A DNA stretch of 21,686 nucleotides from a virus: IMG/VR virus record IMGVR_UViG_3300001533_000886, positions 6,384-28,069 of that record; one strand, 5' to 3'. Shown piece by piece: positions 3,449 through 21,686 of the stretch. Each line of letters starts with the position of its first letter. Position 1 is the first letter of the stretch. The notes beneath the pieces were generated by a model. The model searched no databases. It had not been told where the DNA came from and saw only the letters and a list, made by a program, of their open reading frames with translations. The translations under genes and the position numbers were made by a program.

Positions 3449-4510
3449 ATGGAGATAGTAGATAGTTTACAGGATATGGAAGTATTACATCAAACTTATA
3501 ATTTATATTATACTAACGGTATGATTAGAAGTTGGTTAGATTTAGTTAAGTTATTAGAAAAGGACTTACGAGGTTCTGTAACATATTTCGATGATAATGA
3601 TAAAAATCAAAAAATATTGAAAAATAATGTTGCAGAAGCCTTGCAAAAGTTTGAAGAAAGTGCTATAATACAACTTAGAAAAGATTTAGCAGATTTTGCT
3701 AGAGTTGAGAATTCTTATTATATAAATACCTACAAAGAAGTTTTAGACCCATTTGAATTAGAAGTAGAAGAAGAGGATTCAGAAAAAGTAGTAAATGCTA
3801 TAGAACAGGAAAAAATTAACTTTTCTGATAATAGAGTTTTTACACTACTATTATTTTATAGAACTTTTTTTAATGATAACTCAAAACGAATTAAAGATGC
3901 TATAGCTTCTGCTATAATGTTGGATAGAGACGAAAAATATATTAGAGATGTATTACTTGGTGTTAATGGGCAAACTCAAATAACAGCACATAGGTTATCG
4001 GTTGTAGGGAGAACGCTTACAAATTATTATTCTGCTAAAGTTAAAAATAGATTTATTTCAAAAAATAGACATATGATACAAGGTTATCAATGGATGTCAG
4101 TTTTAGATTCAAGGACATCTACTTTTTGCAGGTGGGCTGATGGAAAAACTTGGAACTATGATACAAACTCTGGAACATTAACAGCCCCCTATGAACCCCC
4201 CGCACATGAAAATTGTAGGAGTTCAACTACACCAATATTTTATTCTTATGATAAGTTGGGTTTAGATGCCAGGTATAAAGAGCAATTTACCGGGAAACCG
4301 CCAGAAAGAATTACATATTATGAATGGTTGTCAAGACAGCCAGCTTCTTTACAAAAAGATGTATTAGGGCCTACTAGATATACATTATGGAAAAAGGAGG
4401 GTGTTACCCCAGAAAAGTTTTATGATAATAAAGGTAAGTTTCTAACTTTATCTGAGTTACAAAAAAAGAATGTAGAAATACCAAAACAATATTTACAATG
4501 GGTGAGGTAA
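3449..4510 (+). CDS. MuF-like minor head protein
   Basis: Minor capsid/head morphogenesis protein of the Mu gpF / SPP1 gp7 family, found inside the head near the portal and needed for head assembly or DNA delivery. The 353-residue product has a long charged helical N-terminal half. The MuF signature lies at about residues 218-260: LDSRTSTFCRWADGKTW with Cys227, then HENCRSS with His253 and Cys256, a possible metal- or fold-stabilising Cys/His set. The C-terminal part carries the PASLQKDVLGPTR segment and LTLSEL that I associate with minor head proteins of this family. No toxin domain is fused to the C-terminus, unlike some MuF proteins. The gene starts 6 bases after the small basic ORF; the Shine-Dalgarno is weak (TTAAAG). 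The metallophosphoesterase gene begins 4 bases after its stop. Confidence 0.88.
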   Translation: MEIVDSLQDMEVLHQTYNLYYTNGMIRSWLDLVKLLEKDLRGSVTYFDDNDKNQKILKNNVAEALQKFEESAIIQLRKDLADFARVENSYYINTYKEVLDPFELEVEEEDSEKVVNAIEQEKINFSDNRVFTLLLFYRTFFNDNSKRIKDAIASAIMLDRDEKYIRDVLLGVNGQTQITAHRLSVVGRTLTNYYSAKVKNRFISKNRHMIQGYQWMSVLDSRTSTFCRWADGKTWNYDTNSGTLTAPYEPPAHENCRSSTTPIFYSYDKLGLDARYKEQFTGKPPERITYYEWLSRQPASLQKDVLGPTRYTLWKKEGVTPEKFYDNKGKFLTLSELQKKNVEIPKQYLQWVR

Positions 4511-10437: not shown

Positions 10438-10851
10438 ATGGCTAGTGGATCGGAACGCTACATAGCGTATGCAAAAGAGACAATTGAAAAGGACGCTCCT
10501 ACGGGGGTCTACCAAAAACTAAGGACAACTGGTGGTGCAGGTATTAGTAATGAACGCACCAGTGTAACATCTAATGAAATTCGAGATGATAGGCAGATTA
10601 CTATTTCCAGATTAGGGAACAATCAGCCTAATGTAACTGTACCTTATGAATTTTCTTGGGAAACTTATGATTCCATTTTTGAAGGGGCTTTAGGGAACAC
10701 ATGGGTCGGTGATTATGAACTTACTGAGACTGTTTCATTTGGTGACGCCGACGATACAATTACTTTAGACGATGCTTCTAGTTGGGAAACTAAAGGTTTA
10801 GCAGTAGGTGATTATTTAATAGTTAGAGATTCTGTGGAGTATATGTTGTAG
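10438..10851 (+). CDS. Major tail (tube) protein, N-terminal part, frame 1
   Basis: First part of the tail tube subunit. It has a strong ribosome site (ATTGGAGGA) like the capsid gene. The 137-residue frame contains the family opening: RYIAYAKETIEKDAPTGVYQ, RTTGGAG, SVTSNEIRDDRQI, RLGNNQP, then YEFSWETYDSIFEGALGNTW. This matches roughly 300-400-residue tail tube proteins of siphoviruses. The frame then enters a beta-rich inserted domain (TITLDDASSW, GLAVGDYLIV) and stops at TAG 10849-10851, in mid-strand. The continuation is present in the -1 frame, open from 10827. I therefore read this as one gene of about 1436 bases broken by a frameshift, rather than two genes. A truncated tube protein of 137 residues lacking the C-terminal core would not be expected to form a tail. 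Confidence 0.8.
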   Translation: MASGSERYIAYAKETIEKDAPTGVYQKLRTTGGAGISNERTSVTSNEIRDDRQITISRLGNNQPNVTVPYEFSWETYDSIFEGALGNTWVGDYELTETVSFGDADDTITLDDASSWETKGLAVGDYLIVRDSVEYML

Positions 10852-11873
10852 ATTCATTTGCTGATAGTGGTGGGACTTCCGATGTTGTTTCTGTTTTAGC
10901 CGCTGATGGTGTCGCAGGAATTTCATTTACTTCGGAAGCTAGTGTTGAGATTAAGGTTGATGGTGGGGCTGATGGTGGGGCTTATGGGGGTCGTATAGAC
11001 ACTACCGGAAATACATTGACTGTGAGTTCTACCAATAAAACTATTACAGCGGCAACGGCCACTTTTAGTAGTTTTCGTGTAGGTGATGCTGTTTATTTTG
11101 ATGGATTTACCAGTCCAGGAAACAATGGGTATAAAGTTGTTACGGCTGTAACCGACACTGTATTGACTTTTGGGGATGATACGCTTACGAATGAGACAAC
11201 AACTACTGTCGATGTTGACTACGCCATGCACGTCGCCCTACTTACTGTAGGTACCGAGCTTTCTACTTATACCTTAGAAGAAGGTTTTACTGATGTTAGT
11301 GAGTATCATTATTCGGCGGGTTGTAAAGTTGGGTCTATGTCAATGTCTATCCAGCCTGATTCTGTACTAACCGGAGATTTTAGTTTTCAGGGTCAGACTT
11401 ATAGTGGGATGTCTGCAACACCGATTTCTTCTTCGACAACTCAGGTAACAACTACAGAGGTGTTTGACTCTTATACAGGTAGTCTTTACTTTGGAGCCGA
11501 TTTTCAGTGTGTAATCACGGGCTTGGATTTTACCCTGGATAATGGCTTGAATCGTAGATATGCTTTAATGCAGAAAGATGCTTGTGGAATTGGTGAAGGT
11601 CGGTCGAATGTATCTGGTACTGTTAATGCTTATTTCCCGGATTCTACTCTAGCAGATAAGTTTAACGATGAGGATGTTTTTGAGGTACGAATTCAGCTAA
11701 AAGACCTTAATGATAATTCTTATACTTTTGGATGGCCTAGAATGAAGTTCACCTCTGATTCCAGAGATGTTACTGAAAATGATGTTACTGAATCTTTGGG
11801 TTTTATGGCTTTGGGTGGCAATACAGAATTGACAAATATGTACATTCGCAAACAACCCAATAAACCTGTATAA
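10827..11873 (+). CDS. Major tail (tube) protein, C-terminal part, frame 3
   Basis: Remainder of the tail tube protein in the -1 frame relative to 10438-10851. The open frame begins after a stop at 10824-10826, so the two frames overlap by 25 bases. The first usable start is TTG at 11016, with no Shine-Dalgarno before it, which argues against independent translation. Content: a beta-rich inserted domain (FSSFRVGDAVYFDGFTSPGN, VVTAVTDTVLTF), then the conserved core continues with TYTLEEGFTDVSEYHY, GSMSMSIQPDSVLTGDFSF, FDSYTGSLYFG, TGLDFTLDNGLNRRYALM, GRSNVSGTVNAYF and a final IRKQPNK. These segments are the normal second half of this tail tube family. Removing two bases (AT) from TATAT at 10840-10844 would join EY to VVDSF in a natural-looking sequence. 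Confidence 0.78.
   Translation, partial: RFCGVYVVDSFADSGGTSDVVSVLAADGVAGISFTSEASVEIKVDGGADGGAYGGRIDTTGNTLTVSSTNKTITAATATFSSFRVGDAVYFDGFTSPGNNGYKVVTAVTDTVLTFGDDTLTNETTTTVDVDYAMHVALLTVGTELSTYTLEEGFTDVSEYHYSAGCKVGSMSMSIQPDSVLTGDFSFQGQTYSGMSATPISSSTTQVTTTEVFDSYTGSLYFGADFQCVITGLDFTLDNGLNRRYALMQKDACGIGEGRSNVSGTVNAYFPDSTLADKFNDEDVFEVRIQLKDLNDNSYTFGWPRMKFTSDSRDVTENDVTESLGFMALGGNTELTNMYIRKQPNKPV
10838..10851 (+). other. Frameshift junction in the major tail protein gene
   Basis: Frame 1 reads GAG TAT ATG TTG TAG and stops. The conserved protein resumes in frame 3 as GTT GTA GAT TCA. Deleting one AT from TATAT gives GAG TAT GTT GTA GAT TCA (EYVVDS), which restores the frame. No X XXY YYZ slippery heptamer is visible here. 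A sequence error, a real mutation or an unusual recoding event are all possible. Confidence 0.7.
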
Positions 11874-11934: not shown

Positions 11935-12312
11935 ATGGATTTTGGAAAATTGGATGTAAGTGCTAAAAGTGAAGAAGGTTCTTGGATGGTTATCCAGGAC
12001 TATGAAGGTGATGAAACTGATGCTAGAATTAAAGTGGTAGGTCAGGATTCTAAAATTTTTAAGAAGCGTATGCACAGATTTGCGGATATCAATCGAAAGA
12101 AAAAGAATGGGTTGAAAGCTGCTGAAATTGAGCGAGAGTTTTTAGAAACTTATGCGTCTTGTTGTGTTGAATTTGAAAATTGTTTTGTTGGTAAGAAAGA
12201 AATTAAAGCCGATAATCTGGAAGATGTTATTGAATTTTTAGAAACTTTCCGTTTTATTTTAGATCAAGTTTCTACGTTTTCTGGAGATCGTAGCAATTTT
12301 TTATCGAATTAA
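11935..12312 (+). CDS. Tail assembly chaperone (gpG-like)
   Basis: A 125-residue chaperone for the tape measure protein, equivalent in position to lambda gpG. It starts MDFGKLDVSAKSEEG, is charged and mixed alpha/beta in the first half, and has a helical second half with ADNLEDVIEFLETFRFILDQV. It ends with GDRSNFLSN. The last codons AAT TTT TTA contain the heptamer T TTT TTA, and the -1 frame is open through the stop into the next ORF, so a fraction of ribosomes should make a G-T fusion of about 250 residues. It lies between major tail protein and tape measure, the invariant site of this gene pair. AGAGG is 9 bases before ATG, and the minimal ATG-TAG lies just before the start. Confidence 0.88.
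   Translation: MDFGKLDVSAKSEEGSWMVIQDYEGDETDARIKVVGQDSKIFKKRMHRFADINRKKKNGLKAAEIEREFLETYASCCVEFENCFVGKKEIKADNLEDVIEFLETFRFILDQVSTFSGDRSNFLSN
12297..12303 (+). promoter_or_regulatory. Programmed -1 ribosomal frameshift site, T TTT TTA
   Basis: In the chaperone frame the codons are AAT TTT TTA TCG AAT TAA. The heptamer T TTT TTA fits the X XXY YYZ rule, so both tRNAs can re-pair one base back as TTT TTT. The next codon is then ATC at 12303, and the -1 frame reads IELRDKLCSEVKKHL without a stop into the second ORF. The 0-frame stop follows two codons after the slip. I see no convincing long stem immediately downstream. Confidence 0.88.
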
Positions 12313-12686
12313 GGGATAAATTATGTAGTGAGGTGAAAAAACATCTCACTCTTAATTATATCTCTTCTAAGAAAAAGGTGTCTTTAAGGTCGCAGTTAGA
12401 AAAAGTTTGGGATCAGATTGGCCAGATACCACCTAAATTGGAAGAATTGAGCCCCGATGTTCCAGCCGCAGGAGTTGATTTATGGAATTTTTTCTGGGAT
12501 CTGAAAACTGGTGAAACAATAACTTGGAATGAAATTCTTAGTTATTCCCAGTATATAGGTATTGAATTTGAGCTATGGCAAATTAGTGTTTTTTTTGCTA
12601 TGAATGCGGAGCATAATAAATACATTCAAGAAGTTGAGTTCCCAGAAAATAAAACACCAAAGAATAAACCTGGGGTTAAGAGGTAA
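12303..12686 (+). CDS. Tail assembly chaperone, frameshift extension (gpT-like)
   Basis: C-terminal T domain of the G-T fusion, read after the -1 shift at 12297-12303; 127 residues follow the slip. It begins IELRDKLCSEVKKHL, has a short basic stretch (SSKKKVSLRSQ), then WDQIGQIPPKLEEL, and a helical aromatic-rich part (VDLWNFFWDLKTGETITW, ELWQISVFFAMNAEHNKY), ending in a basic PKNKPGVKR tail. In lambda-type phages the T part binds the tail tube protein while G coats the tape measure. An internal GTG at 12333 could start a 117-residue product, but the only purine-rich sequence near it overlaps the start, so frameshift translation is the better reading. The tape measure starts two bases after its stop. 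Confidence 0.83.
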   Translation: MELRDKLCSEVKKHLTLNYISSKKKVSLRSQLEKVWDQIGQIPPKLEELSPDVPAAGVDLWNFFWDLKTGETITWNEILSYSQYIGIEFELWQISVFFAMNAEHNKYIQEVEFPENKTPKNKPGVKR

Positions 12687-20200: not shown

Positions 20201-21686
20201 TACTCTATTATAAAGATTTAGATGTTGCAGGAGATGGTATTGCTGTAACTTCTTCTAAGGGAGTTGATCCGGTCTATGATCCAGACAGAGAATATTTATA
20301 TTATTTATATACTACTGAACAGATTATTTATAGAACAGATTTAACTACCTCAGACGATGGTGATCGTACTTTTATTTATGCAATAAGTTTAGCTTTGAAC
20401 CCTTTAGGTGATCTGTTTTTTACAAATAATATAACTGGTAAAATACAACTGGCTTTGATAAATGCTATCGAAAGGAAACCAACTTTAACTTTACCCGCAC
20501 CTCCGGCAGATTTAGTATTTAGAGGTAATTTAACTAATGGTTCTATAATTGTTGGCGTGGAAGATGAGACTGTTTTGCAGTTAGCATCCGTTGGGGATAA
20601 GGTGTCCTCAGAATATTTATTAGAAGGTACAGAAATTGTATTTATTGATATTCAGAATTCGGTATTTCAAGTATCTAATCCAGCTATTACTACAATGCCT
20701 TCAACAACTTGTTTCCTCAATGCTACCGCAGACTATATAGGTGAATCGTCATTACTTCCAGGTTCTATTACAGAAACTAAAATAAGTGATGGGGCAATTA
20801 GTACACCAAAGTTACAAGCAAACGCTATCACTGCTGATAAAATGGAAGCAAATGTATTAAATACTTTGATTGCTAATATAAATGAACGATTGACCGTTGG
20901 TTCTCAAGGATATACTTCTTATAATTTAAAAATTTCTGGTGAAATAAATATAGGTGATACCAGAATATACGTTGATAAAGACGAAGTTACCATACAAGAG
21001 TGTGTTTCAATAGGCTTTCCCAATATAATTGAGAATTCTGTATGGGAAGATCGAAATTCATTAACTATGGATGAAGATGTTGTAGGTAATAAATATGAAA
21101 TTTTACACATGGGTGGTGCTGAGATAAGAAAGGGGTCTGTAGAGCCAAAGTCTTATGGCGATATCGCATGGGATAATACAGCAGTAGTAAATCCTGGGAC
21201 AAGTTATTTAACTGATAATAGATCACTACTTTCTGTGAAGGATGTACAAGAAGTTACTACAGGTGTTATAGATAGTGATGTTTCATTTGATAATGTTTTT
21301 TATGCAAATAATATTGATAAGTTTTTAGCAAATGGTAGTATTTTACCAGTAGAAGTTTCAGAAACAGTTTTTAATGCTGGTAATACATACGATGTTTCGA
21401 CAACACTTCTCCAAAATGGAAATGTTTTAATAGCTTACAGAGATGTCGGAAATTCTAGTTACGGAACTTTTGTAATTTATGATGAAGATGGAAATGAAAT
21501 TGTTGGAGAAACAGTTTTTAATGCCGGTACAACATACGATGTTTCTACAACACTTCTTCAAAATGGAAATGTTTTACTAGCTTACAGAGATGGCGGAAAT
21601 TCTGATTACGGAACTTTTGTAATTTACAGATTTTCCTTATATAAATATTCTGAAGTATTCACTGGAGAAAATATTATTCCAAGTAT
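17269..21686 (+). CDS. Tail tip/host-specificity protein, gpI+gpJ-like (3'-truncated)
   Basis: Runs off the window with at least 1472 residues. Residues 1-80 look like a beta-grasp fold (VIIIDRDTIVKDW, LPKHSDVYIKILP) followed by a Gly/Ser linker. A small-residue hydrophobic region covers about 91-150 (FGIGLALVAVGIILSATG, VGVTVGLAGAAVGIYA). Both resemble lambda gpI fused in front of gpJ. The gpJ-like core follows: VVYISFPQGIQRW at about 277, YTVSELLNVITASGHASWLF and FTPRNTFNFRG at about 508-555, and GDRVKLQHDVPMFGLTSGRI at about 637-656. About 870-1064 holds propeller-like repeats (VNNTDIIISSYDDG, SDNSIVYSSPE, LNPLGDLFFTNN). A collar-like TETKISDGAISTPKLQANAI is at about 1169-1188. The last part contains two 49-residue repeats. 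GAAGG lies 11 bases before ATG. Receptor binding is expected at the C-terminal side. Confidence 0.88.
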   Translation, partial: MQNKIKVTVLHNPFKTEKKIYESEKISFEELYEKYIPNKYPKSHVIIIDRDTIVKDWSQLPKHSDVYIKILPTSSGGGSSEEELQGSQQDGGGAFGIGLALVAVGIILSATGIGAVIGVPLIKVGVTVGLAGAAVGIYATLQLEGIALAERQKEAMTVNQLPSIRGGKNQSGANKRVPILLGEHLVVPFYAAPPYISVTNNEQYLHQKFLNGYSNVYVDESTIKIGDTKLDNYSNEYELTTDELYPERVLDNVVGISLVENGDNAVRTTTTNVKKIVVYISFPQGIQRWNDNYDIRSKAIKFTIQYREAGNEADSWKSIGSIKNSYKTNTTKIFVFEKELDNILPTDPDYNLLRQYDVKVIKQFNKDSERKRATMVFANIQSYTASFDNLGSVDRNPIISSVRNNLSILNLKIKAEKDINNAIDQLNYVAKAHIRNYNGVDWNTVEFTNNPAACFLHVLTDSNVNRKPVDDINIDFDALEEWYDYCETKEFTFNTYLNKEYTVSELLNVITASGHASWLFIDNVYRVIIDDVKPNIVQYFTPRNTFNFRGSRGFGKLTTGIKAQFINANSGYSEEERVVYYNNVEDDSEIEEAKFFGITDPDHVYKLAQRMLRVQRFRREIFSFSADIEALVCTGGDRVKLQHDVPMFGLTSGRIISILDYTGNDDAIISDELVTFEPSKTYQVRIRLTGGSSIIKDVVNPATVENITTDELEFVTPEVSGTLSEQELFMFGESGSETVDLLVIAIEPDEDFIVNLICTEYSPEIFDPVVPDAYDPKISMPGNDVGDFRITNVYNPDTAIQEALGLSTDLTATAQSLEVRRPDSYTITQYQGLFSTFGVDPEDLNNSFFYAPVEKDYKVYKKDYKRLSYGDLYLDKTIHGMCAVNNTDIIISSYDDGEKLVYFDGTTATEITTIRALHPRVLNDTELLYINVDDNHTLYKKSIDSLDDGVQVFNKMIHSFCVVSDNSIVYSSPELSSILYYKDLDVAGDGIAVTSSKGVDPVYDPDREYLYYLYTTEQIIYRTDLTTSDDGDRTFIYAISLALNPLGDLFFTNNITGKIQLALINAIERKPTLTLPAPPADLVFRGNLTNGSIIVGVEDETVLQLASVGDKVSSEYLLEGTEIVFIDIQNSVFQVSNPAITTMPSTTCFLNATADYIGESSLLPGSITETKISDGAISTPKLQANAITADKMEANVLNTLIANINERLTVGSQGYTSYNLKISGEINIGDTRIYVDKDEVTIQECVSIGFPNIIENSVWEDRNSLTMDEDVVGNKYEILHMGGAEIRKGSVEPKSYGDIAWDNTAVVNPGTSYLTDNRSLLSVKDVQEVTTGVIDSDVSFDNVFYANNIDKFLANGSILPVEVSETVFNAGNTYDVSTTLLQNGNVLIAYRDVGNSSYGTFVIYDEDGNEIVGETVFNAGTTYDVSTTLLQNGNVLLAYRDGGNSDYGTFVIYRFSLYKYSEVFTGENIIPS
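21361..21627 (+). repeat. Tandem 147-base coding repeat in the tail tip gene
   Basis: Two copies, 21361-21480 and 21508-21627, start 147 bases apart (49 codons) and agree at about 110 of 120 compared positions by eye. Each encodes TVFNAG-TYDVSTTLLQNGNV followed by an AYRD-GNS-YGTFVIY segment, joined by a DEDGNEIVGE linker in the first copy. The pattern of strands and NG turns suggests a beta-propeller or similar beta-rich receptor-contact module. After the second copy the sequence changes (RFSLYKYSEV). Confidence 0.9.

Follow-up and report, generated by a model that had tools for sequence, protein, structure and literature searches.

A major tail tube gene split across two reading frames in a metagenomic siphovirus contig, very probably by a private indel

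The IMG/VR record in our study comprises 28,069 bases, and the window, that is, the whole stretch of DNA that was analysed (21,686 nucleotides), corresponds to its bases 6384-28069. Its gene content is that of a siphovirus structural module in the order usual for siphoviruses: terminase, portal, head morphogenesis, scaffold, major head protein, connectors and tail terminator, followed downstream by the tail tube, tail chaperone, tape measure and tail tip genes. The head morphogenesis protein (3449-4510) has 353 aa, about half the length of its 714-aa match in the genome of the relative L001, and it lacks a middle stretch of ~330 residues that is present in that counterpart. The last ORF (21000-21684) crosses the window end and encodes a tail fibre-like protein containing a repeat, made of two near-identical tandem stretches, ETVFNAG(N/T)TYDVSTTLLQNGNVL(I/L)AYRD.

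The tail tube gene of this phage occupies two reading frames, with the following parts:

10438..10833, plus strand: tail tube, N-terminal part, in frame 1, with homology to relatives through R-D-S
10834..10851, plus strand: out-of-frame end of the frame-1 ORF, which closes with the TAG at 10849-10851
10834..10835, plus strand: most likely lesion site; frame-1 homology stops at 10833 and frame-3 homology starts at 10836
10836..11873, plus strand: remainder of the tail tube, in frame 3, up to the native stop

The frame-1 ORF begins at the ATG at 10438, preceded by an SD-like GGAGG, and encodes 137 aa, and frame 3 is open over 10827-11870 and ends with the stop at 11871-11873. By profile, both parts belong to the Phage_tube_2 / T5 pb6-like family: against PF18906 (Phage_tube_2) the first part covers profile positions 1-91 with 31.6 bits and the second covers 78-266 with 65.7 bits, both above the curated cut-off of 27 bits, and against phrog_290 they cover 13-106 and 105-322, respectively. 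Intact relatives match frame 1 for one part and frame 3 for the rest, with an E value of 2e-173 for L031; since the same intact relatives span both frames, chance is excluded. On the evidence of sequence, the two ORFs are to be read as one tail tube gene extending across two frames. The first-pass annotation had described a major tail protein split between frame 1, up to the TAG at 10849, and frame 3, open from 10827, and both the frames and the adjacent family matches agree with that description. No second copy of the tail tube gene was found in the 28-kb record.

With an alignment query, 81 loci representing 57 distinct proteins were gathered from viral and bacterial contigs. In 76 of the 81 loci a single ORF covers the matched stretch, in the other five the contig ends first, and a broken tail tube gene occurs in none of the 76 loci that span the site; in 77 loci, some of them overlapping on one contig, both window halves match one ORF. 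Aligning the halves to homologues, as had been proposed from the first reading of the sequence, gives consecutive parts of one family and not a single two-protein homologue among the 76. The tail tube gene is also intact in L107, a bacterial-genome contig with 42% to the L001 query. Exact-pattern scans of viral contigs, a collection from which very near records may be missing, revealed no near-identical intact copy of the same phage, and the same population was not seen intact in these scans; a pattern scan of viral contigs with the C-terminal part alone gave no match, and the reference phages include none that is closely related to the region at the DNA level.

The closest relative, L031, carries a single ORF of 477 residues, to which the first half is 65.2% identical and the second half 65.7% (tblastn gives 65% for the N-terminal part in frame 1 up to 10833). 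These values bear on the possibility that the contig is a chimera of two phages joined within the tail tube gene, a kind of misjoin that would be able to shift the frame. The near-equal identity to L031 on either side argues against it, the gene order is intact from terminase to tape measure, and we consider this explanation very improbable. General decay or an error-rich contig was also considered and was rejected, because the remaining window genes for which relatives were compared are unsplit: when set against eight relatives, the tail tube gene alone is split across frames.

Some further features of this family were observed. Over 10740-11250 the tail tube gene encodes a tandem pair of inserted beta domains that resemble each other, each with an [N/D][N/D]G-x turn in relatives, and distant relatives have one such domain (L016, L046) or none (L014, L018). 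The tail tube protein of L009 has an extra insert of ~80 residues. In L108, the upstream minus-strand gene at 902-1684 appears thymidine kinase-like, as judged by eye from its sequence.

The protein fold was judged on a model of the intact relative L031 (13 rows; pLDDT 80.6). In VIA-align comparisons this model gave a Z of 29.4 with the SH-Ab15497 major tail protein (8xan), 24.6 with P74-26 (8ed0) and 22.7 with the T5 tail tube (9iny); T5-type tail tubes align with it at Z 20-29 over 270-290 residues, in agreement with a two-domain tube fold. The model consists of two fused tube domains with a beta domain (~residues 89-182) inserted in the first, and the lesion falls in a beta-turn, a DDG motif in relatives, between model strands 126-130 and 137-145. 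The break cuts the predicted decoration domain within the first tube domain. The unshifted product has 137 of ~475 residues; it would lack what remains of the decoration domain as well as the entire second tube domain, so that on the model it could not work as a tail tube. The major tail protein of TP901-1 has been reported to be essential, a stop mutant giving tail-less capsids and no lysogeny (PMC4493119).

That the two ORFs represent two separate functional proteins is extremely improbable. The TTG at 11016 in frame 3, with a weak GGA upstream, could be considered in favour of independent translation, but it is the first start codon of a frame that has none over 10827-11015, and the C-terminal ORF, if counted from a start codon, does not begin before this position. 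The first-pass annotation had likewise considered independent translation unlikely, as the C-terminal part lacks a start with a ribosome site. In addition, the break lies inside the decoration domain of the first tube domain, and the relatives are all fused.

The lesion was located with a two-frame, frameshift-aware alignment in which all switch points were scored. The preferred switch is from 10830-10833 to 10836 for L031, L001 and L044, and in tblastn the frame-3 match begins at 10836 in L031, L044 and L109 (the genome of L001). From this position frame 3 reads GGA GTA TAT GTT GTA, that is, GVYVV, continuing as GVYVVDSF, and this start precedes the TATAT at 10840-10844. At the break, L031 reads ...VRNSDSDDGIYVVNAF..., and the other relatives read GDDGVYVVTSA (L008), AEDGVYYVDTL (L044) and GEDGIYSVKTV (L001); the GVYVV of the window stands against GIYVV, GVYYV and GIYSV in relatives, and L008 likewise has GVYVV. 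The residues VEYML at the end of the frame-1 ORF receive no support from the closest relatives. An AT insertion within TATAT had been proposed earlier, with the removal of one AT rebuilding a smooth EYVVDS. The insertion does not hold, as frame-3 homology is already under way before TATAT; the rebuilt frame is indeed open, but a switch at TATAT scores 13, 13 and 16 units lower for L031, L001 and L044, respectively. More distant relatives without the DGxY turn place the switch more vaguely, mostly at 10827-10836, and L010 prefers 10848 by one unit. These alignments suggest that the lesion, at ~10834-10835, most likely removed a net 3n+1 bases (the window has 10 fewer here than L031), and the comparison with relatives has moved it a few bases from the position inferred by inspection alone.

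We also considered the possibility that programmed or corrective frameshifting, either -1 or a +2 slide of tRNA-Tyr from TAT to TAT, makes the full-length protein. Both frames are open in the overlap 10827-10848, a TAT-to-TAT re-pairing at +2 within TATAT, which yields VEYVV, is by inspection the only exact one, corrective and 'savior' frameshifting are known (PMC5009743), and in other phages both tail and capsid genes use frameshifts. However, VEYVV would stand where the closest relatives read (D)DGxYxV, with the 13-16 score units lost as described above; no slippery heptamer of the form X XXY YYZ occurs in 10820-10855, which the first reading had also noted; the RNA fold downstream of the break is ordinary, with z values of -0.36 and +0.68 against shuffles; and the arrangement in two frames is not conserved in relatives (0/76). 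Moreover, the tube protein is required in high copy, whereas frameshift products are made at low level. Frameshifting of this kind is exceedingly unlikely, and we give hardly any credence to a non-canonical frameshift, such as +2 at TATAT, rescuing an essential, highly expressed tail tube gene. Programmed recoding at the tail tube break is very unlikely, and the undescribed recoding signal suggested in the first-pass annotation finds no support in the relatives, in the available re-pairing or in RNA structure.

How a real signal looks in this phage can be seen at the tail assembly chaperone pair, 1.4 kb downstream of the break, from its heptamer and stem-loop:

11935..12312, plus strand: tail assembly chaperone, first ORF (gpG-like); phrog_313; L031 60.8%
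12297..12303, plus strand: -1 slippery heptamer T TTT TTA, canonical and in frame, just before the chaperone ORF stop
12311..12366, plus strand: stem-loop 3' of the slippery site, -22.1 kcal/mol, z -6.34 (RNA fold)
12294..12686, plus strand: second chaperone frame (gpT-like), reached via a -1 shift and open from 12294; L031 60.6%; phrog_4966

By its sequence features, this pair is a predicted textbook case of -1 programmed frameshifting. The heptamer T TTT TTA is also present in L031 and L044, and L001 has AAATTTT.

With high confidence, we conclude that the locus is a T5 pb6-like tail tube gene of the ordinary single-ORF kind, with a private indel at ~10834-10835 that reflects either an erroneous consensus or a genome that is defective or in the minority. 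A sequence error, a dead genome or a population variant had been among the options listed in the first-pass annotation, and this proves the right class of explanation. The proposed indel, private to one viral contig, would interrupt an otherwise ordinary single-ORF major tail tube gene: the assembled consensus may be wrong at ~10834-10835, or the genome may be a defective or minority variant that would make no tail, only a truncated product of 137 residues. Homopolymers are the usual site of sequencing indels; the lesion does not lie in one, and this tips the balance a little towards a true mutation. An error or a minority genome, in turn, gains slightly from the phage's need for a tail, and we weigh consensus error and true mutation as about equal. 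In both parts, differences concentrate at codon position 3, each in its own frame, which indicates that the halves were coding until recently; together with the unsplit state of the other window genes compared, this argues for a recent lesion or a consensus error. Where the break lies, and that relatives lack it, is shown. We take the tail tube break for an ordinary mutation or a sequence error, not for a new protein-making route. It is a single indel, private to one metagenomic phage contig, and has little biological weight; in practical terms, annotations of the locus should name a frame-broken major tail protein, and neither two proteins nor a recoding site.

Frameshifts in the major tail gene have been reported in SPP1, Listeria and lactococcal 936 phages, where they yield a second, extended product; in two of these cases, SPP1 and the 936 phages, a protein that is already complete gains a C-terminal domain through the shift (PMC8718954, PMC5009743, PMC4759559). 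As in the window, the tail tube gene lies in two frames in SPP1 (gp17.1/gp17.1*) and in the Listeria PSA-type phages. The unshifted product of SPP1 is the whole tube protein, and a fraction of the copies gain a C-terminal FN3/Ig-like domain by the shift (PMC8718954, PMC5009743). In contrast, the unshifted product of the window is without most of the tube fold, and the SPP1/PSA-type arrangement, with a complete unshifted tube protein and a shift near the 3' end, is not found here (137 of ~475 residues). With the T5 pb6-type tail tube (PF18906, phrog_290) the gene shares its sequence family, and the fold is similar in the model of the intact relative; it differs in having beta domains inserted in the first tube domain and a frame break within the first of these inserts. 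Finally, the chaperone -1 frameshift of the lambda G/GT type has its expected counterpart in this phage, separate from the tail tube break.
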